Below the pieces are notes generated by a model that made no database searches, was not told where the DNA came from, and worked only from the letters and a program-made list of their open reading frames with translations. Shown piece after piece: positions 14,572 through 44,616 of a DNA stretch of 64,000 nt. Position numbers and translations under genes: made by a program. The DNA is from Chloroflexota bacterium (GTDB lineage Bacteria > Chloroflexota > UBA11872), in NCBI GenBank assembly GCA_026706485.1, contig JAPOYR010000012.1, positions 62,001 to 126,000 on the forward strand. Direction: 5' to 3'. The stretch's first letter is position 1; each line of letters opens with the position of its first letter.

Positions 14572-15708
14572 TCAGTTGCCGGCGGCGCCGGCCTCGTCGC
14601 GCTGGTCTGGCGTGGGAACCATCGTGAAGGGGGACTTGGCCGTCGCGCCTCGCCCCGTCCGACGTCGGGCGCGGCGACGCGGCATCGACGATTGCGCGGC
14701 CGACGCCGGCCGGCATCCCGTGGCGATCAGCGTGATGCGCACGCCCTGGGACAGGCGCGGGTCGATCACCGAGCCGAAGATGATGTTGGCGTCGTCGGCC
14801 ACCACGTCGGCCACCGCCTGCGCGGCCGTATTCAACTCCACCAGCGTGACATCCTCCGACGCGGTCACGTTGAGCAGCACGCCCCGCGCGTCCTCGATGC
14901 TGGTTTCGAGCAGCGGGCTGTGCATGGCCTCGTTGACGGCCGTGACCGCCCGGTCCTCGCCGGAGGCTTCGCCCACCCCCATCAGCGCCGGGCCGGCGTT
15001 GGACATCACCGCGCGCACGTCCGCGAAGTCCACGTTGACGATTCCGGTCGTGAGGATCAGGTCGGTGATGCCCTGTACGCCGCGTTGCAGCATCTCGTCG
15101 GCCATCACGAACGCGTCGCCAATGCCCATGCGCGGATCGGACATCTTCAGCAGCCGGTCGTTGTGGACCACGATCAACGCGTCCACCTGCTCGCCCAGGG
15201 CTTGAATCCCGCCCGCGGCGATCTGGTTCCGCCGCGTGCCCTCGAAGGTGAACGGGCTCGTCACCACGCCCACCGTCAGCGCGCCCTGCTCGGAGGCGAT
15301 TTCGGCGATGGCCGGCGCGGCGCCGGTGCCCGTGCCGCCGCCCATGCCCGCTGCAATGAACACCATGTCGGCGCCTTCGGTGGCTTCGGCCAGGGCGCCG
15401 GCGCTCTCGCTGGCCGCCTTCTCGCCGCGCCGCGGGTCGCCGCCCGCGCCGAGTTGCCCGGTGGTGTGCGTCCCGATCTGCACGACCTCCGAGGCGCGCG
15501 AGCCGCGCAGCGCCTGGGCGTCGGTATTCACCGCCACAAACTCCACGCCGTTGAGCCCGGCGTCGACCATGCGGTCCACGGCGTTCACCCCGGCGCCGCC
15601 AACGCCAATCACGCGAATTTGAGTGAATCCGGTCGCCCGCCCCGGCAGCGGGGCGTCGCGCGCCAGGATGCGCGGCACCAGCCCCGGCGGCCGGTTGTTG
15701 GCCTCCAT
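14572..15708 (-). CDS. ftsZ: Cell division protein FtsZ
   Basis: This 378-aa tubulin-like GTPase forms the cytokinetic ring. The family motifs are present: I-G-V-G-G-A-G-V-N-A-V-D-R-M at 34-47, G-M-G-G-G-T-G-T-G-A-A-P at 121-132 and the T7-loop segment N-V-D-F-A-D-V. The start at ATG 15708 avoids a long overlap with parA. Further upstream starts would overlap it by about 90 bases. The C-terminal tail is short, rich in Arg then Gly/Ala, and lacks an obvious conserved C-terminal peptide of the D-I-P-x-F-L-R type. It sits outside any division (dcw) cluster, between parA and a histidine kinase. Confidence 0.93.
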   Translation of the reverse strand: MEANNRPPGLVPRILARDAPLPGRATGFTQIRVIGVGGAGVNAVDRMVDAGLNGVEFVAVNTDAQALRGSRASEVVQIGTHTTGQLGAGGDPRRGEKAASESAGALAEATEGADMVFIAAGMGGGTGTGAAPAIAEIASEQGALTVGVVTSPFTFEGTRRNQIAAGGIQALGEQVDALIVVHNDRLLKMSDPRMGIGDAFVMADEMLQRGVQGITDLILTTGIVNVDFADVRAVMSNAGPALMGVGEASGEDRAVTAVNEAMHSPLLETSIEDARGVLLNVTASEDVTLVELNTAAQAVADVVADDANIIFGSVIDPRLSQGVRITLIATGCRPASAAQSSMPRRRARRRTGRGATAKSPFTMVPTPDQRDEAGAAGN

Positions 15709-15736
15709 GCGCGCGGGATCGAATCCGCCGTGATCG

Positions 15737-16513
15737 CTAGGCGGCACGGGTGAGCACTTCCTCGGCCAGGGCCTCGTAGGCGTCAACCGCCCGCCGCACG
15801 CCGCGGCCGCGCGCGCCGGGCGCAAAGATCGACAGCCCGGAGCTCGACGCTTCCAGAATCTTGCTGTTGGTGGGGATTCTCGCGGCGAACATCTCCGCCT
15901 CCCACTGCTCCTGCAAGTATCCGGCCACGTGCTTTTCCTCGCGCAGGCGTCGGTCGAACTTGTTGAGCACGATCCCCAGCACGCGCAGGTTCGGATTGAC
16001 GATGGTCACCTCTTCGATGCTCTCCGTGAGCATCTGCAGGCCGCGCAGGGAGAAGAAGCGCGCCTCCGTGGGAATGATGACCCACTGCGCGGCGACCAGC
16101 GCGTTGAGCGTCAGCACGCCCAGCGACGGCGGCGTGTCCACGAGCACGTAGTCGTAGTCGTTGTCGATGCGCATCACGTGCTCGCGCAGGCGCATTTCGC
16201 GGCCCAGCTTGGTCTGAAGCTCGCTCTCCACCGCCGCCAGTTCCGGCGTGCCCGGCACCAGGTCGATGGCGACGTCCGTGGAGTCCTGCACGCGGTAGCG
16301 CGGCAGCTCGGCGTCGCGATGCAGCAGGGAATCCGCCAGCGAGGGCGACACCGCCTTGTCGAGGCCGAACGAGGACGTGAGGTTGCTCTGCGGGTCCGTG
16401 TCGATGACCAATACGCGCAAGCCGTGGCGGGCCAACGTGACGGCAAGGTTGGCGGTGGTCGTGGTCTTGCCGACGCCGCCCTTCTGATTGGCAACGGCGA
16501 TGGTGACAGCCAT
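15737..16513 (-). CDS. parA: ParA/Soj-family ATPase
   Basis: This 258-aa protein has the deviant Walker A N-Q-K-G-G-V-G-K-T-T-T at about 8-18, D-T-D-P-Q-S-N-L-T and V-D-T-P-P-S-L-G motifs. It belongs to the ParA/Soj group that positions chromosomes or other cargo with ParB-like partners. The ATG at 16513 precedes M-A-V-T-I-A-V-A-N, the normal N-terminus. No parB gene is adjacent. Instead ftsZ follows after 28 bases, suggesting a link between segregation or positioning and division. The 352-base upstream gap separates it from the divergent sigma factor gene. Confidence 0.9.
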   Translation of the reverse strand: MAVTIAVANQKGGVGKTTTTANLAVTLARHGLRVLVIDTDPQSNLTSSFGLDKAVSPSLADSLLHRDAELPRYRVQDSTDVAIDLVPGTPELAAVESELQTKLGREMRLREHVMRIDNDYDYVLVDTPPSLGVLTLNALVAAQWVIIPTEARFFSLRGLQMLTESIEEVTIVNPNLRVLGIVLNKFDRRLREEKHVAGYLQEQWEAEMFAARIPTNSKILEASSSGLSIFAPGARGRGVRRAVDAYEALAEEVLTRAA

Positions 16514-16636
16514 AGGCGTCTCCGAGCGCTGCCGCCCACGGGCCCCCACGGCAGGCAAACGCCCGCAGCGATGGTAGGCGTCGCCCGCAATTGAGTCAAC
16601 ATAATTGTCAACGGGGAATCGGCTCACGGTAAGTCC

Positions 16637-16722
16637 GTCATTCCCGCGAAGGCGGGAATCCAGGCCGGTCGAATTTGAAGGCGCGCCGAATGCTTGGCGT
16701 CGGGCGGGTCGGAGACCCGCCC
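16637..16722. repeat. Two intergenic hairpin repeats upstream of parA
   Basis: Two unrelated palindromes lie in the 352-base gap 16514-16865. The first (16637-16664) has ATTCCCGC at 16640-16647 pairing with GCGGGAAT at 16652-16659. The second has GGGCGGGTC at 16702-16710 pairing with GACCCGCCC at 16714-16722. The first matches a short palindrome I have seen commonly between genes in many bacteria, so both are probably dispersed REP-like elements. The rest of the gap holds the ECF promoter at 16794. Confidence 0.6.
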
Positions 16723-16793
16723 CTGCCGGACTCTCGGACGGTCTCCGTAGGCGGGGATCGGCAAACAAACCCGGTCATTCACCGTCGCCGCAG

Positions 16794-16820
16794 GGAACGA
16801 TTGCCCCCCAAACGGCGTAC
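16794..16820 (+). promoter_or_regulatory. ECF-sigma-type promoter (GGAAC-N17-CGTA) of the sigma-vWA1 operon
   Basis: GGAAC at 16794-16798 and CGTAC at 16816-16820 are separated by exactly 17 bases, the classic ECF sigma consensus. It lies 46 bases before the sigma factor start. The same pair of boxes with the same spacing recurs before the second vWA gene (19576-19602). A small CCCGC/GCGGG hairpin (16836-16850) in the presumed leader is also conserved. Autoregulation by the adjacent sigma factor is inferred. Confidence 0.75.
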
Positions 16821-16865
16821 TTGTCTATGCAATACCCCGCAGAGTGCGGGTCATGAGGGCGGCTT

Positions 16866-17405
16866 ATGACCGATGAACAGGCTGTCCTGCGCTGTCAGGA
16901 CGGCGATCGTGAGGCGTTTCACCACCTCGTGGAACGCTACCAAGACCTGCTCTATCGCACGGCCATGCTGATGACCGGAAGCCGGGCACTGGCCGAGGAG
17001 TTGGTCCAAGGGGCCTTGCGCTCGGCATGGCGGGGCATCCACGGCTTCCAGCATGGATGCCCGGTCAAACCCTGGCTGATGCGCTATCTCGCCCGTGAGG
17101 GCGTGTCGCAGCGCCGCCGTCGGCCATCGGCCGGCGTCGTCCCGTCCAGCCCCGGGCAGCCGGACGACTCGGACGAGGCGCAGCACGAGCGCCAGGACAT
17201 GCGCCAGGCCTTGGCCGGCCTGGATGCGGACCAGCGGCACATCCTGGTGCTGCACTACTTCGCCGATCTCACCGTCCCCCAGCTGGCGAAAGCCCTCGAC
17301 GCTGGCGAGGACTCCATCAACACCCGCCTCAGCCGCGCGCTCGGTCACCTGCGCGAGCGGCTCGAGGCGCAAGGTGCCCAGGAGGTCGCCAACGATGGCT
17401 CCTAA
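16866..17405 (+). CDS. ECF-family RNA polymerase sigma factor
   Basis: This 179-aa protein has a sigma-70 region 2 (about 15-85, with V-E-R-Y-Q-D-L-L-Y-R) and region 4 (about 118-168, with L-D-A-D-Q-R-H-I-L-V-L-H-Y and an HTH ending in R-L-S-R-A-L-G-H-L). They are joined by a Pro/Ser linker, and region 3 is absent, as in ECF factors. It is preceded by an ECF-type promoter, consistent with self-activation. The vWA1 gene starts inside its last codons (11-base overlap), the usual arrangement for a sigma factor and its membrane-bound partner or anti-sigma factor. Confidence 0.92.
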   Translation: MTDEQAVLRCQDGDREAFHHLVERYQDLLYRTAMLMTGSRALAEELVQGALRSAWRGIHGFQHGCPVKPWLMRYLAREGVSQRRRRPSAGVVPSSPGQPDDSDEAQHERQDMRQALAGLDADQRHILVLHYFADLTVPQLAKALDAGEDSINTRLSRALGHLRERLEAQGAQEVANDGS

Positions 17406-19389
17406 CTACTCCACCGACGAATCCCTGGGCGACGCGCTGCGGGAGTATTTCGCGGCGGAAGCCCCCTCGCTCCGTGCGCCCTTGAACCTTTGGGACTCCT
17501 TGGAGGGTCGTCTCGAAGAGCCCCGGCGCATGCCGCGCCTTCGACGCAAAGTTCTAGCCGCCGCCTCGCGCTATTGGTTCCCCACGTTGGCCACCGGCGG
17601 AGCGGTCGCGGCGGGCGCCGTGCTGGCGGTCTGGGCCACATCGGCAAACCTGGGAGAACCCCAGGTCGTCGAGAAGTTCGTGACGCAAGAAGTCATCAAG
17701 GAGGTCCCAGTCGAGACCATCGTTACCAGAGAAGTGATCAAGCAGGTTCCGGTCGAGACCGTGGTGACCAAAGTAGTCGTGAAAGAGGTCCCGGTTGAGG
17801 CCGTGAGGATGGTCGAGGTCGAGAAGGTCGTAACCAAGGAAGTCATCAAGGAAGTCGCGGTCGAGAAAAGCGTCGTCCGAGAATCGTCGGCGGCGTACTC
17901 ACGCGCCCCCACCGCGGCCCCACCGGCCCCGGCGACGACCCGACCGCCGGCCACGACCTTCCAGGACAACCGGCGGCAGCCCGTCGTCGCCACCGTTGAT
18001 GACGCGGTGTCGACTTTCAGCCTGGACACCGATCGCACGTCATACCAGCTGGCGCTCAACTGGGCGCGGCAGGGCTACGACATCGAGCCGGACTCCGTGC
18101 GGGCCGAGGAGTGGATCAACGCCTTCAACTACCAATACGCCCAACCTGCTGATGCGTGGGGCTTCGCCATCACGAGCGACGTCGTGGCCCACCCGCTGGA
18201 CGAGCGCAAGCATCTGGTGCGCCTCGGGTTCCAGGCGGCGGAGGTCCCGGACGACCGCCCGCTCAACGTGACGTTGGTGCTCGACGCCTCGGGCTCGATG
18301 CGCGACGGCAACCGGGTGGACATTGCCCGGGCGGCGGCGGAGACCATCCGCCAAAGCCTGCGCCCGCAGGATCGCGTGGCGGTGGTGCACTTCACCAGCG
18401 ATGTGATTCACGACCTCACTGTGGAGCATCAAGCCCCGGATCACTCGGCGGTTTGGAACTCCATTCGGTCTCTCTCGCCGCGTGGCAGCACCAATGTGCA
18501 GGCGGGGCTCAATCTCGGGGTCCAACTGGCCGACCGGGCGCGGCGGGAACGGCCCAGCGCCTACAACTACGTCATCCTGATGTCGGACGGCGTGGCCAAC
18601 GTGGACGCCACCAACCCCTTCGCGATCCTGGAGTCGGCCTATGACCGGAACGCGGGCAATCCGTTGCGGCTCATCACGGTCGGCGTGGGCATCAACAATT
18701 ACAACGACGTGTTGTTGGAGCAACTGGCGCAGCACGGCAACGGGTGGTACCGCTACTTGGACGACACCGGCCAGGCGCAGGCCACCTTCAGCCGGGCGAA
18801 CTGGCTGGCGCTGTCCACGCCCTTCGCCGACCAGACGCGGGCGCAGGTCACCTGGGATCCCGACGTGGTCAAATCCTGGCGCATCGTCGGCTATGAGAAC
18901 CGGGTGACGTCGGACGCGAGCTTCGCGGAGGACCGCAAGGAGTTTGCGGAACTGCCATCGGGCGCGGCCACCACGGTGTTCTACGAGGTGGAGCTGCACG
19001 ACGGCGTGCGCCGCGGCGAGGACCTGAAGCTTGGCCGGGTGGAGTTGCGCTGGGTGGTGCCGGAGACGGGCCAATCGCGCAGCCAGCAGGTCGAGGTGAC
19101 GGGTCGGAGCAACCTGGGCTTCGGCAGCCATGAGGCCGACCCGCTGTTGCGGTTGGGCGGCATCGTGGCGCTGGCGGCGGACCGCTACAGCAGCCTGCCG
19201 CGGGGCGCGGATTACGGCGCCGCGGGCGTGTCTACCGACCTCGCCATCCTGCAAGAGGAGCTGAGGGCGCTGGCCGGGCAGCTGGGCGGCTTGGATGCCT
19301 ACCGTGACTTCGGCTTCCTGCTGGAGCGCATGGCGGAGCGGGCCTACACCCAGGCTCCGCCGAGATCCCCCTCCGGCTACAGCCGCTAG
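17395..19389 (+). CDS. Membrane-anchored vWA-domain protein with EVPVE stalk (vWA1); possible anti-sigma factor
   Basis: This 664-aa protein has a short N-terminal domain (1-55, with A-L-R-E-Y-F-A-A-E and N-L-W-D-S-L-E-G-R-L) that resembles the cytoplasmic segment of anti-sigma factors. One membrane helix follows (about 62-82), then a stalk of Val/Glu/Lys repeats based on K-E-V-P-V-E (about 90-162) and a Pro/Ala/Thr linker. The rest is the YfbK-type layout: a vWF_A N-terminal domain (about 203-260), a vWA domain with MIDAS D-A-S-G-S at 297-301 and M-S-D-G at about 396-399, and a C-terminal DUF3520-like domain. The start overlaps the sigma gene. The outer vWA domain probably binds a metal-dependent ligand. 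The anti-sigma role is inference. Confidence 0.88.
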   Translation: MAPNYSTDESLGDALREYFAAEAPSLRAPLNLWDSLEGRLEEPRRMPRLRRKVLAAASRYWFPTLATGGAVAAGAVLAVWATSANLGEPQVVEKFVTQEVIKEVPVETIVTREVIKQVPVETVVTKVVVKEVPVEAVRMVEVEKVVTKEVIKEVAVEKSVVRESSAAYSRAPTAAPPAPATTRPPATTFQDNRRQPVVATVDDAVSTFSLDTDRTSYQLALNWARQGYDIEPDSVRAEEWINAFNYQYAQPADAWGFAITSDVVAHPLDERKHLVRLGFQAAEVPDDRPLNVTLVLDASGSMRDGNRVDIARAAAETIRQSLRPQDRVAVVHFTSDVIHDLTVEHQAPDHSAVWNSIRSLSPRGSTNVQAGLNLGVQLADRARRERPSAYNYVILMSDGVANVDATNPFAILESAYDRNAGNPLRLITVGVGINNYNDVLLEQLAQHGNGWYRYLDDTGQAQATFSRANWLALSTPFADQTRAQVTWDPDVVKSWRIVGYENRVTSDASFAEDRKEFAELPSGAATTVFYEVELHDGVRRGEDLKLGRVELRWVVPETGQSRSQQVEVTGRSNLGFGSHEADPLLRLGGIVALAADRYSSLPRGADYGAAGVSTDLAILQEELRALAGQLGGLDAYRDFGFLLERMAERAYTQAPPRSPSGYSR

Positions 19390-19395
19390 TCCTCT

Positions 19396-19430
19396 CGGCG
19401 CCTGCCGGTCATCCCGACCGGCAGGCGCCG
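19396..19430 (+). terminator. 15-bp perfect hairpin after vWA1
   Basis: CGGCGCCTGCCGGTC (19396-19410) pairs perfectly with 19416-19430 around a five-base loop, six bases after the vWA1 stop. There is no T-run, so termination would be factor-assisted, or it may act in mRNA 3'-end protection. The same stem follows vWA2. Confidence 0.6.
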
Positions 19431-19575
19431 GGACAAGCGCTCAATTCGGAGCGGGCACTGCTTCTTTCGCCAGCCGTCCTTTGTGAGGTTTCTTTCACCG
19501 GCTATCCGCTGTGAGTTTCCTGGCCGGGCGGCGTGCGGGCGGCGGGCGCCCGCCCGGGAATTTGGTCACGGTGAT

Positions 19576-19602
19576 GGAACGATTTCGCCCAAAGTGGCGT
19601 AT
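19576..19602 (+). promoter_or_regulatory. ECF-sigma-type promoter (GGAAC-N17-CGTA) of vWA2
   Basis: GGAAC at 19576-19580 and CGTAT at 19598-19602 have a 17-base spacer, identical in design to the promoter before the sigma gene. The leader hairpin CCCGC (19618-19622)/GCGGG (19628-19632) is also shared. This places vWA2 in the regulon of the neighbouring sigma factor, by inference. Confidence 0.72.
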
Positions 19603-19647
19603 TTCTCTATGCAACGCCCCGCGGAGCGCGGGATTGGAGGGCGGATC

Positions 19648-21537
19648 ATGACGGATGCAACGCCTGTTCTGCACGATCGGGACGGCGATCGTGACGAGAT
19701 CAACCACCAAGTAGGCCAGAGCCACGACGCGGGCGCCGGCCCGGTGGAAGGATCCCGGCCCGTCACGCGGCTACGGCGCAAGATCCTGGCCGCGACTTCC
19801 CGCTGCCGGATTGCCGCGGCGGTCACCGGCGCGGCCGTCGCGGTGGCGGTCCTCGCCGCAACGGCCTGCGGCGAAGCGGAAGTTGTCGAAAAGACCGTGA
19901 CTCAGGAAGTAATCAAGGAGGTTCCGGTCGAGACTGTCGTCACCAAAGCCGTGCACAGGGAGGTTGCGGTCGAGAAGGTGGTAACGAAGGAGGTGGTGCG
20001 GGAGGCACCGGTCGAGCGAAGCATGACCCGGCCGTCAACGGCGTCGCGCGCCACGCCCGCGGCCGTTCGTGCGCCCACGGCCCGGCCGGCGGCCACAATC
20101 GTCCGGGACGCTCGGCGGCAGCCGGAAGTCGCCACGGCCGAAGATGCGGTCTCCACGTTCAGCCTGGACACCGACCGCACGTCGTACCAGCTGGCGCTCG
20201 CCTGGGCGCACCAGGGCTACGAAATCGATCCGGACTCGGTGCGGGCCGAGGAGTGGATCAACGCCTTCAACTATCAATACGCCCTGCCGTCGGACGACTG
20301 GGGCTTCGCCATCACGAGCGATCTCGTCACGCACCCGCTGGACGGGCGCAAGCACCTGGCCCGAATTGCCTTCCAGGCGGCGGAAGTGCCGGATGATCGC
20401 CCGCTCAACGTCACGCTGGTGCTCGACGCCTCGGCCTCGATGGCGAGCGGGAATCGCATTGACATCGCCCGCGCGGCCGCGGAGGCCATTCGCCGGAGCC
20501 TGCGCCCGCAGGACCGCGTGGCCGTCGTGCACTTCACCACGGACGTGATTCGCCAGTTCACCGTGGAGCACAGCGGGCCGGACAACTCCTCGGTGGAGTG
20601 GTCGATTTCGCGGCTGGCACCGACTGGCGGCACCAACGTGCAGGCGGGACTCAACCTCGGGGTTCAGCTGGCCGACGCGGCGCGGCGGGAACGGCCGGAG
20701 GCCTACAACTACGTCATCCTGATGTCGGACGGCGTGGCCAATGTGGATGCCACCAACCCGTTCGCGATCCTGGAGTCCGCCTACGACCGCAACGCCGGCA
20801 ACCCGCTGCGGCTGATCACCATCGGCGTGGGAATCACCAACTACAACGACGAGTTGCTGGAGTTGCTGGCCCAGCATGGCAATGGCTGGTACCGCTACTT
20901 GGACGACCCCGATCAGGCGCGCAGGACCTTCAGCCGGGCGAACTGGCTGGCGCTGTCGACGCCCTTCGCCGACCAGACGCGGGCCCAGGTGACCTGGGAT
21001 CCGGACGTAGTCCGGTCGTGGCGGATCGTGGGCTACGAGAACCGGGTCACGTCCGACGCGAGCTTCGCGGAGGACCGCAAGGAATTCGCGGAGTTGCCGT
21101 CGGGCGCGGCCACCACGGTCTTCTACGAGCTGGAGCTGCACGACCGCTATCGCGGGCGCGTGGCTGAAGACCTGAAGCTGGGCCGGGTGGAGCTGCGCTG
21201 GATCGTCCCGGACACGGGTCAATCGCGCAGCCAGCAGGTCGAGGTCACGGGTCGGAACGACCTCAGCTTCGACGGCAGCCGGGTCGATCCGCTGCTGCGG
21301 TTCGGTGGCATCGTGGCGTTGGCGGCGGACCGCTACAGCAGCCTGCCGCCCGGCACGGACTACGGCGCCGCGGATGTGGCGGATGAGCTGGACATTCTCC
21401 AGGGACAGCTGCGCGCGCTGCAACGCACGCTCGGCGACCTGGGCGCCTACCAGGACTTCAGCTTCCTGCTGGAGCGGATGGCGGAGCAGGCCTACGCCCA
21501 GGCTCCGGCCCCGGCCCGCTCTGGCTACAGCCGCTGA
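19648..21537 (+). CDS. vWA-domain protein with EVPVE stalk (vWA2), N-terminus derived from a sigma factor gene
   Basis: This 629-aa paralogue of vWA1 is closely similar from about residue 135 to the end. MIDAS is D-A-S-A-S and a D-x-G strand follows. The hydrophobic segment at 53-73 ends in A-T-A-C-G, so Cys74 could be a lipidation site, though the lipobox is not canonical. The stalk (79-123) is shorter than in vWA1. The first 27 residues (M-T-D-A-T-P-V-L-H-D-R-D-G-D-R-D) align with the sigma factor N-terminus (M-T-D-E-Q-A-V-L-R-C-Q-D-G-D-R-E), not with vWA1. The anti-sigma-like segment of vWA1 is missing. The ATG at 19648 follows G-G-A-G-G in the leader. A deletion in a tandem copy explains this. 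Confidence 0.88.
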   Translation: MTDATPVLHDRDGDRDEINHQVGQSHDAGAGPVEGSRPVTRLRRKILAATSRCRIAAAVTGAAVAVAVLAATACGEAEVVEKTVTQEVIKEVPVETVVTKAVHREVAVEKVVTKEVVREAPVERSMTRPSTASRATPAAVRAPTARPAATIVRDARRQPEVATAEDAVSTFSLDTDRTSYQLALAWAHQGYEIDPDSVRAEEWINAFNYQYALPSDDWGFAITSDLVTHPLDGRKHLARIAFQAAEVPDDRPLNVTLVLDASASMASGNRIDIARAAAEAIRRSLRPQDRVAVVHFTTDVIRQFTVEHSGPDNSSVEWSISRLAPTGGTNVQAGLNLGVQLADAARRERPEAYNYVILMSDGVANVDATNPFAILESAYDRNAGNPLRLITIGVGITNYNDELLELLAQHGNGWYRYLDDPDQARRTFSRANWLALSTPFADQTRAQVTWDPDVVRSWRIVGYENRVTSDASFAEDRKEFAELPSGAATTVFYELELHDRYRGRVAEDLKLGRVELRWIVPDTGQSRSQQVEVTGRNDLSFDGSRVDPLLRFGGIVALAADRYSSLPPGTDYGAADVADELDILQGQLRALQRTLGDLGAYQDFSFLLERMAEQAYAQAPAPARSGYSR

Positions 21538-21542
21538 CCTAT

Positions 21543-21577
21543 CGGCGCCTGCCGGTCACCCCGACCGGCAGGCGCCG
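21543..21577 (+). terminator. 15-bp perfect hairpin after vWA2
   Basis: The stem CGGCGCCTGCCGGTC at 21543-21557 pairs with 21563-21577 and is identical to the stem after vWA1. Only the loop differs (ACCCC instead of ATCCC). It confirms that the duplication included the 3' flank. Confidence 0.6.
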
Positions 21578-21606
21578 GGGCTGGCGGGGTCACGCGGGAC
21601 TCGGAC

Positions 21607-21631
21607 GGGCGCCCACAAGGGGCGCCCCTAC
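21607..21631. repeat. Dispersed GGGCGCCC...GGGGCGCCCC repeat
   Basis: This GC-rich imperfect palindrome is nearly identical to 29413-29437 (one base different) and related to the shorter-armed elements at 48446-48471 and 57858-57884. It lies between convergent genes. It is probably a mobile or REP-like intergenic element typical of this genome. Confidence 0.6.
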
Positions 21632-21653
21632 GGTTTGAATCCGGCTGGGAAAC

Positions 21654-21977
21654 CTACGGCAGCGGCGAATAGTCCGTCGGCTCGAGGAACCGGTTGTGGA
21701 TCCGGGCCACAATCTGCCCATCGGCTTCCGTGTCGGCCCGGAGTTGCAGCCACTCGGGGTCGCTGATGAAGGCGCCCCATTTCCGCTCGCGGTCGGCCAT
21801 GTCGGCAAAGCGCGTCAGATACACCAGCCGGTCGCTGCGGCCCACGACCTCGTGCCAGAACCCCACCACCTCCACGCCGTGCCGCTCGAAGAAGCCCAGC
21901 GTGTGTTCGCGAAACCGCGCCTCGATGACCGGCATCTTGCCGGGAAGAATCTCGTAGATGCGCAATTCATACAGCAT
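21654..21977 (-). CDS. NIPSNAP-family protein
   Basis: This 107-aa protein starts M-L-Y-E-L-R-I-Y-E, the typical opening of NIPSNAP domains (ferredoxin-like dimeric alpha/beta-barrel). The motifs F-F-E-R-H-G-V-E-V-V-G-F-W and R-F-A-D-M-A-D-R-E follow. Bacterial members are of uncertain function and often occur singly, as here. The ATG at 21977 fits the domain exactly; further upstream codons read as non-conserved sequence. Confidence 0.88.
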   Translation of the reverse strand: MLYELRIYEILPGKMPVIEARFREHTLGFFERHGVEVVGFWHEVVGRSDRLVYLTRFADMADRERKWGAFISDPEWLQLRADTEADGQIVARIHNRFLEPTDYSPLP

Positions 21978-22064
21978 GGTGGATTGACCTCGGACGGCGA
22001 GCGCGCGGGAGCGTAGCATGGGGGCCGCGGGGAGCGGGCGGTTTCGTCGGAGAGGCGCGGGGAC

Positions 22065-22475
22065 ATGTACGCCATCGTGATCGGCTGCGGACGCGCCGGC
22101 GCCGAGATTGCCGCGCGCATGGCGGCCGCCGGTGACTCGGTCGTCGTCATCGACCGCGACAGCCACGCGTTCCAGCGGCTGCCCGACGACTTTGCCGGCA
22201 CGACGCTGGTGGGAACCGCCATCGATCTCGACGTCCTGGAGGCCGCCGGCGTGGCCCGCGCCGACGTGCTGGTGGCGGCCACCTACGGCGACAATTCCAA
22301 TCTCACCGCGGTGCAACTGGCGCGCCTCAAATACGACGTGCCGCGCGTCATCGCCCGCGTCAAGGACCCCGTGCGCGCCCGCGTCTTCGCCGACCGCGGC
22401 ATCGAGACCATCTGCTCCACGGACATCATTGCCAGCGCGATCATGGACCGGCTGGCCGGCTCCCCGGCGGTTTAG
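22065..22475 (+). CDS. TrkA-N (RCK) domain protein, NAD-binding
   Basis: This 136-aa protein is a single Rossmann domain: V-I-G-C-G-R-A-G-A-E-I-A at 5-16, acidic D33 in V-I-D-R-D for the ribose, and the RCK pattern A-T-Y-G-D-N-S-N. It lacks the TrkA-C domain. It has a good ribosome site (GGGGAC before ATG). The next gene, three bases on, encodes a complete TrkA-N/TrkA-C protein, so the two may form the cytoplasmic ring of a potassium uptake system. No membrane subunit (TrkH/KtrB) is in the window. Confidence 0.88.
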   Translation: MYAIVIGCGRAGAEIAARMAAAGDSVVVIDRDSHAFQRLPDDFAGTTLVGTAIDLDVLEAAGVARADVLVAATYGDNSNLTAVQLARLKYDVPRVIARVKDPVRARVFADRGIETICSTDIIASAIMDRLAGSPAV

Positions 22476-22477
22476 GC

Positions 22478-23149
22478 GTGTTCATCATCATCGCCGGCGG
22501 CGGCAAGGTGGGCGCCGCGCTGGCGCACGACCTGCCGCCCGGCGGGCACGAGATCGTGCTCCTCGAGAAAGACCGCCGCAAGGCGCAGGATCTGGAAGAC
22601 GACCTTGGCGCCTCGGTCGTTCCCCAGGACGCCTCGGAGGGCCGGTGGCTCTCGACGGCGGGCGTGGCGCGGGCCGACCTCGTGATTGCCGTCACTGGCG
22701 ACGACGAGGACAACCTTGTCATTTGTCAGCTCGCTCGCGCGCTCTCCAAGGGTCGGGCGCGCACCATCGCGCGTCTCAACAACCCCAAGAATCAGGACGC
22801 TTTTCGCCTTCTGGAGATCGAGGCCATCGTCAACGCCACCGACCTGGTCATGAGCATGATCGAGCGCGACCTGGGCGCGGCGTCCGTGGTGCACCTCATG
22901 CGCCTGCGCTCCGCCGGCCTCGAGCTCGTCGAGCTGACCGTGGCCAGTGAATCAGCCGCGGCCGGGGCGTCGGTCACCGACCTGCAGCTCGAGCAATTGG
23001 GCGCCCGCGTGGCCGTCGTGCTGCGCGGCGACGACGCGCTGTTCACGTTCACCGACCTCGTGCTCAGGTCCGGCGATACGGTGGTGGCGGTTGTGGATAT
23101 CGCGAACGAGAGCGCCGTACGCTCCCGCTTCGACGCCGCCCACTTCTAG
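22478..23149 (+). CDS. trkA: TrkA-family potassium uptake regulatory protein
   Basis: This 223-aa protein has a Rossmann/RCK-N domain (I-I-A-G-G-G-K-V-G at 4-12, L-L-E-K-D, A-V-T-G-D-D-E-D-N) followed by a TrkA-C domain (about 140-215). It gates a Trk/Ktr-type potassium channel in response to NAD(H) or nucleotides. The start is GTG at 22478, three bases after the previous stop. It converges with the L25 gene. Confidence 0.88.
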   Translation: MFIIIAGGGKVGAALAHDLPPGGHEIVLLEKDRRKAQDLEDDLGASVVPQDASEGRWLSTAGVARADLVIAVTGDDEDNLVICQLARALSKGRARTIARLNNPKNQDAFRLLEIEAIVNATDLVMSMIERDLGAASVVHLMRLRSAGLELVELTVASESAAAGASVTDLQLEQLGARVAVVLRGDDALFTFTDLVLRSGDTVVAVVDIANESAVRSRFDAAHF

Positions 23150-43464: not shown

Positions 43465-44616
43465 TCAGATTTCGGCCGGCGCGCCGTCCGAGTAGCGCAA
43501 CAGGTCGGGCGGCGCGGCCGGACCCGCGGACTCCAGCGCCCGGGCCGCGGCCTCGTCGAGCGCGATGCCCAGACCCGGCGACGTGGGCGGCAAGGCGTAG
43601 CCGTCCTTGATTTTCAGGTCGCTCTCGAACAGCGCCTCGACCTCCGGCGCGAAGGGCCAGATCACCTCCTGGATCGCCGCGTTGTGCAGCGCGAAATCCA
43701 GGTGCAGGCTCGCCATGGTGTTGACCGGGCTCTGGGGATTGTGCGGCGCCAGCTTGATCAGGTGCGCGTCGGCGGCCACGCCCATCTTCCAGACCTCGGT
43801 CAGCCCGCCCGCGTGAGCGATGTCCGGCTGCAGGTAGTCCACCAGCTCCTCGTCGATCACGGGCTGGGCGTCCCAGCGGTGCAGCAGCCGCTCGCCGGTG
43901 GCCAGCGGGACCCTCACCGTCCGCCGGATGCGTCGCAGCGGCGCCACGGCTTCGGGCCGGGTCGGCTCCTCCAGGAAGTAGGGATCGAACGGCTCGAGCC
44001 GCCGCGCCAGGTCGACGAACTCGTCGGGCCGCAGCCGCCCATGCGTCTCGATGAGTAAGTGAAACGCCTCGCCCACGAACTCGCGCGCGGCTTCGACGAT
44101 TCGCTCCGCCCGGCGCAGGGCGGCGGGTACGTCCATGCCCCGCTCCTGCTCGTCGGCAGCCATCAGCGGCAGGAACTTGGCGGCGGTCCATCCCGCGTCG
44201 ACCAGTGGACCGAAGGCGTCGGGGACCTCCTCGGGCGTGTTGGCGTGGCAGTGCGTATAGAGCGCCACGCGATCCCGCACCGGCCCTCCGAGCAGCCGGT
44301 GGATCGGCAGCCCCAGCGCCTGCCCGGCAATGTCCCACAGAGCCACGTCGATGCCGGCCAGCGCGCCCATCTGCACCGCGCCGCTGCGGCGTCGGTCGCT
44401 TAGAAACACTCGATGCCAGAGGTATTCGCGCCGCAGCGGGTCCTCGCCGACCACCAGCTCCGCAAAGTCCCGCAGCGCCTCGCGCACCGACCGCTCACGC
44501 CCCATCAGCGTCGCCTCGCCCAGACCGGTCAGCCCCGCATCCGTCCGCACCAGCACATACACATAGCTGCGCCCCGCCTGCGGAACGATGACGCTATCGA
44601 CAGCCGTAATGCGCAT
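43465..44616 (-). CDS. Mandelate racemase/muconate lactonizing (enolase superfamily) enzyme
   Basis: This 383-aa protein has an N-terminal capping domain (1-125) and a barrel domain with A-A-K-F-L-P-L-M, metal-ligand strands I-E-T-H-G-R, F-L-E-E-P and T-G-E-R-L, and L-A-P-H-N-P-Q-S-P with a catalytic-type His. The last feature resembles the galactonate/mannonate dehydratase subgroup of sugar-acid dehydratases. The exact substrate is unknown. The start at ATG 44616 (M-R-I-T-A-V-D) is typical. It leads the operon with RibD_C and DUF362, which suggests an unassigned catabolic route. Confidence 0.9.
   Translation of the reverse strand: MRITAVDSVIVPQAGRSYVYVLVRTDAGLTGLGEATLMGRERSVREALRDFAELVVGEDPLRREYLWHRVFLSDRRRSGAVQMGALAGIDVALWDIAGQALGLPIHRLLGGPVRDRVALYTHCHANTPEEVPDAFGPLVDAGWTAAKFLPLMAADEQERGMDVPAALRRAERIVEAAREFVGEAFHLLIETHGRLRPDEFVDLARRLEPFDPYFLEEPTRPEAVAPLRRIRRTVRVPLATGERLLHRWDAQPVIDEELVDYLQPDIAHAGGLTEVWKMGVAADAHLIKLAPHNPQSPVNTMASLHLDFALHNAAIQEVIWPFAPEVEALFESDLKIKDGYALPPTSPGLGIALDEAAARALESAGPAAPPDLLRYSDGAPAEI

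Follow-up and report, generated by a model that had tools for sequence, protein, structure and literature searches.

A probable ECF sigma factor regulon in Chloroflexota with a membrane-bound vWA protein as the putative anti-sigma partner

A stretch of 64,000 nt from Chloroflexota bacterium (UBA11872; assembly GCA_026706485.1, contig JAPOYR010000012.1, positions 62,001-126,000 of the forward strand), hereafter the window, carries two gene units that very probably belong to an autoregulated regulon of an ECF sigma factor and a membrane anti-sigma factor in Chloroflexota that are marine and mostly live with sponges, with a vWA protein as the putative anti-sigma partner. A third ECF-vWA pair, unlinked to the window, lies on contig C10 of the same genome. 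In this canonical pair, a vWA N-terminus of ~55 residues would bind the ECF sigma factor and hold it at the membrane, with the vWA-YfbK head placed outside the cell at the end of a flexible V/E linker. The sigma factor would be freed when the head senses a change (a ligand, force or cleavage), and would then use A(G/T)GGAACG(A/T)TT-N13-CGTA promoters to transcribe its own operon and a small set of genes for exported proteins, including vWA, DUF4349, LRR and RCC1 proteins and PD40 propellers. The window would hold a paralogous pair, whose sigma factor has diverged in the core- and DNA-binding regions, and a second vWA protein, vWA2, which lacks both sigma gene and anti-sigma domain and would be an output of the regulon.

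Both units are encoded on the + strand. Unit 1 opens with an ECF-type promoter (GGAACGATT-N13-CGTA, 16794-16819), identified by motif scan and by column conservation within the genus, followed by a small leader hairpin (16836-16850), a Shine-Dalgarno-like GAGGG (16855-16859) conserved in most relatives examined, and the gene of a divergent ECF sigma paralogue (16866-17405), assigned by Pfam domains and alignment. The vWA1 gene (17395-19389), whose start overlaps the end of the sigma gene by 11 nt, encodes a candidate cytoplasmic anti-sigma domain (residues 1-62; 17395-17580), a putative membrane helix read from hydrophobicity (~residues 64-85; 17584-17649), a V/E stalk of 14-residue repeats (17659-17889) and a head composed of vWF_A (residues 187-276), VWA (291-462, with the MIDAS motif DASGS) and YfbK_C (477-536) domains. 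A 15-bp stem-loop without a U-tract closes the unit (19396-19430).

The initial annotation had placed GGAAC-N17-CGTA boxes in front of both units. The boxes are indeed present, the second at 19576-19601, and they belong to one and the same promoter, which extends beyond CGTA by any base and a T. A scan for GGAACGWTT-N12-14-CGTA returned eight sites in the whole 3.4-Mb genome and 33 in a set of six congeneric genomes, against none for the reversed-motif control in either case. Among the genus sites, columns that were not part of the search pattern are conserved as well, with A at -2 in 28/31, G before CGTA in 30/31 and T two bases after CGTA in 31/31, which lends the motif independent support. 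The match between the two boxes of the window does not count as independent evidence, because the units are homologous by duplication. A looser scan for GGAAC-N15-19-CGTA was set aside as evidence on its own, as its 67 matches against 104 in the control do not exceed chance. The window contains a third GGAAC...CGTA box at 44582, with a spacing of 18 and mismatches to GGAACGWTT, which we take to be a chance occurrence.

The pairing of ECF genes with following vWA genes recurs across genomes, as the initial annotation had proposed to search for: we found 38 distinct ECF-vWA operons, 36 of which carry GGAAC-N17-CGTA or CATA directly 5' of the ECF gene. This supports the proposed autoregulation of such operons by a putative AAC/CGT-type promoter. 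Positive autoregulation, promoters of this type and co-transcription of the anti-sigma gene are standard in ECF systems (PMC8103513). The majority of motif sites lie directly 5' of sigma operons or genes for exported proteins, and the genus sites that were read precede either ECF genes or genes whose products have exported-looking N-termini. The non-sigma targets include one LRR, one RCC1-repeat, two PD40/LRR and one DUF4349 protein gene, and a SIMPL protein gene is also preceded by a site, with one mismatch. The DUF4349, LRR and RCC1 targets were seen again in the sister genus, where they were assigned by resemblance. At two order-level motif matches (L208, L223) no exported gene was found downstream, and three genomes (G008, G014, G016) have motif sites with no detected PF12450 vWA, the site in G008 abutting a contig end. 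One exported PD40/LRR target (L024, G000:C10:191199) appears split, its signal-peptide ORF ending early and the propeller lying in another frame; in a relative, L153, the frame stays open over 475 residues or more.

Which sigma factor drives these promoters is a separate question. The window sigma factor (P0001) scores above the Pfam cut-offs with Sigma70_r2 (43 bits) and Sigma70_r4_2 (41 bits), matches TIGR02937 (87.6), and consists, like ECF (group 4) factors, of sigma2 and sigma4 only with a short linker. Its operon retains the promoter, and purifying selection acts on all the genes including this one, so the protein does something. These observations make it a credible though not favored explanation that it is a working sigma factor, of the same or altered promoter specificity, which drives the local units itself. 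However, the VQEAF-like motif of region 2.2 has become VQGAL (within VQGALRSAW) and the EGTVKSRL-like motif of the region 4.2 recognition helix has become GEDSINTRL, whereas nearly all canonical sequences aligned keep both motifs. The C10 sigma factor (Sigma70_r2 53 bits, Sigma70_r4_2 57 bits) retains VQEAF and EGTVKSRL. In an unrooted tree, in which long branches call for caution, a well-supported branch places the window sigma on the same side as further decayed sister-genus relatives, which are also without VQEAF and EGTVKSRL and are fused to the putative anti-sigma domain, often together with a membrane helix. Because of the divergence in regions 2.2 and 4.2, the canonical C10 sigma factor is the more likely driver of the regulon. 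Of the self-activating system originally proposed, the autoregulated promoter stands, but the window's own sigma factor is probably not what activates it. Tentatively, and with considerable doubt, the window sigma lineage may be losing DNA recognition, its members serving as decoys or tethers that tune the amount of canonical sigma factor which anti-sigma proteins can hold.

Unit 2 can be aligned to unit 1 over the promoter and some 20 codons of the sigma gene (16794-16926 versus 19576-19708, 76%). The aligned part includes a copy of the leader hairpin (19618-19632) and a remnant of the sigma gene start (19648-19707), which is identical to unit 1 at 45 of 60 nt and now forms the beginning of the vWA2 gene (19648-21537). 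Past this point, the gene encodes a hydrophobic segment ending in LAATAC, a possible lipobox, followed by the stalk and head; the anti-sigma domain is absent, and the 15-bp stem-loop lies at 21543-21577. Between the units, the promoter boxes are identical at 14/14 positions, compared with 7/12 in the spacer and 28/100 in the 100 nt upstream, which shows that the boxes were selectively retained. Judging from the alignment, unit 2 is a duplicate in which the sigma gene is lost and the promoter, the 3' stem and about 20 codons of the sigma gene survive. A recent duplication of vWA1 into vWA2 finds no support, since the distances from vWA2 to vWA1 and to the C10 vWA protein are about the same. In the sister genus, G012 has a comparable second unit that also lacks a sigma gene and carries a box of its own. 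The initial annotation had read both units together as a surface-sensor system; with the sigma gene and anti-sigma domain lost, unit 2 is better read as a member of the regulon than as a second sensor.

Box-bearing vWA genes are not confined to such duplicates. A GGAAC-N16-18-CGTA-like box (at most one mismatch) precedes 29 of 58 unpaired vWA genes versus 7% in shuffles, which points to vWA genes as regulon outputs in many lineages. The vWA proteins could accordingly be structural, adhesive or transport members of an ECF stress regulon with no part in sensing, but this is unlikely, as pairing with an ECF gene goes along with an extra cytoplasmic domain and membrane helix, both missing in the output form. 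The head of the paired form may act as a sensor.

The predicted architecture of this form agrees with the initial description of a membrane helix, V/E repeats and an outer vWA domain, here resolved into vWF_A, VWA and YfbK_C, and supports a membrane-anchored head probably exposed outside the cell. In vWA1 and vWA2 all three head domains exceed the Pfam cut-offs, as in the YfbK family, with the YfbK_C profile matched over its first third only. In the AlphaFold model of vWA1, the head alone is confident, and its fold matches solved vWA structures. The V/E stalk, in contrast, had been given a special role that did not hold up. Its repeats have 26 matches in some 20 proteins of the same genome, all four of those checked being solute-binding lipoproteins, and we rejected it as a defining part of the system in favor of a generic exported linker. 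The 15-bp stem, reported to end each unit, does so in all three including C10, and no further copy was found in the genome when up to three mismatches were allowed. A scan for intrinsic terminators found none, and an Rfam search of 16500-22100 returned nothing. The leader hairpin is likewise present in both units as described, but it is kept only in the window-type sigma lineage and missing from C10-type and sister-genus leaders, and was rejected as a conserved regulatory element. Long G/C homopolymer runs downstream of the vWA gene at three other loci (L034, L039, L051) are possibly assembly artefacts.

The N-terminus of vWA1, which had been likened to an anti-sigma factor, is best read as a short putative anti-sigma domain, a view that association, fusion and co-segregation support. 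A cytoplasmic N-terminus of ~55 residues followed by a membrane helix is predicted in 37/37 ECF-paired vWA proteins. Unpaired vWA proteins begin with an apparent lipoprotein signal peptide or other leader and lack the domain, the exceptions being L052 and L074, each located at the very start of its contig. When the domain alone was used as a query against 301 Chloroflexota genomes, it was also found directly after ECF genes on non-vWA ectodomains (L198, L199, L200, L201 and L203), the one in L203 being DUF4179-like. The weakest non-vWA matches (L202, L204, L205) have no adjoining ECF gene and look like chance. At L198:1591-3288 (G290), the ECF gene is followed by the domain on a DUF4349 ectodomain, and DUF4349 also occurs among the regulon outputs of the genus to which the window belongs.

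In the sister genus, the domain is joined to a sigma-like part in single-frame fusions at six loci (L191, L192, L194, L195, L196, L197), and at a seventh, L193, which is near-identical to L192. The fusion at L191:1450-3678 (G009) is 743 residues long and combines the sigma-like part, the anti-sigma-like domain, a membrane helix, a stalk and a VWA head, in which no vWF_A or YfbK_C matches were found.

N-terminal identity is 65-69% between paralogues as opposed to 90-91% between orthologues, while head identity within one genome reaches up to 98-100%. Among the 12 copies of the genus, sigma and N-terminus distances correlate with r = 0.957 (partial 0.956), for which tight linkage of the overlapping genes could be part of the cause, and head distances with only 0.19. 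By these measures, the N-terminus tracks the sigma gene between paralogues, and the vWA head undergoes gene conversion. Conversion between the two unlinked paralogues of a genome can be seen at L044/L057 (G001) and in other genus pairs, where heads are 98-100% identical in parts and the N-termini remain distinct.

Class I (ASDI) anti-sigma domains are four-helix domains, often with Hx3Cx2C, and binding to both sigma2 and sigma4 is common to classes I to III (PMC7406223). The vWA N-terminus differs from class I in its length of ~55 residues, in being modeled by AlphaFold as three helices at low confidence and in the absence of the Hx3Cx2C zinc signature from its alignment. Pfam and PDB sequence searches gave no credible match, and none in the PDB to class II or III (CnrY, RsbN). 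In an alternative reading, the promoter and regulon are real but the N-terminus is a cytoplasmic tail serving some other function, and the sigma factor is controlled by its expression level or by another protein. This would suit the missing zinc signature and the lack of detectable homology to known anti-sigma domains but is very improbable given the strict ECF association even with unrelated ectodomains, the natural sigma fusions and an N-terminus that segregates with sigma while the head converts.

The proposed anti-sigma system resembles RpoE-RseA and SigW-RsiW in having a sigma gene followed by that of a membrane protein, positive autoregulation and a GGAAC/CGTA-type promoter. It differs from them in its ~55-residue cytoplasmic domain, which has neither a zinc signature nor a match in Pfam or among solved structures, and in its vWA-YfbK ectodomain. 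A further known system resembles it in the way it works only, through a short cytoplasmic segment of few helices before a membrane helix; there the ectodomain differs from the vWA head, and sequence similarity was not detected. The E. coli YfbK family shares the three-domain head above Pfam cut-offs, to which the ECF-paired form adds the N-terminal cytoplasmic domain, the membrane anchor and the ECF gene partner. Like ECF41-type factors with a fused regulatory domain, the sister-genus fusions combine sigma factor and regulator in one polypeptide, but in them a decayed sigma part is joined to the vWA-type anti-sigma-like domain, which is often accompanied by a membrane helix.

In the open literature, of which our coverage is incomplete, we found no paper that pairs an ECF gene with a vWA anti-sigma protein, although an earlier description may exist, and none describing either this short N-terminal domain or its fusion to sigma-like proteins. 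The present comparison links vWA-YfbK proteins to a concrete putative signalling architecture, points out a short candidate anti-sigma domain that occurs in part of the Chloroflexota, and makes a regulon of repeat-containing surface proteins (LRR, RCC1 and propellers) accessible to testing. Head conversion within a genome, with the inner tail still paired with its sigma factor, amounts to a natural experiment on signalling specificity.

The named relatives of vWA1 are Chloroflexota MAGs, many of which, to judge by their bin names, presumably come from sponges. For sponge symbionts, LRR proteins figure among the proposed mediators of contact with the host (PMC6306507), and that the regulon serves symbiosis is our guess. 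On either side of the two units, translations suggest one FtsZ-like and one ParA-like gene at 14572-16768 on the - strand, and a gene pair resembling TrkA-type potassium-uptake regulators at 22065-23149 on the + strand.
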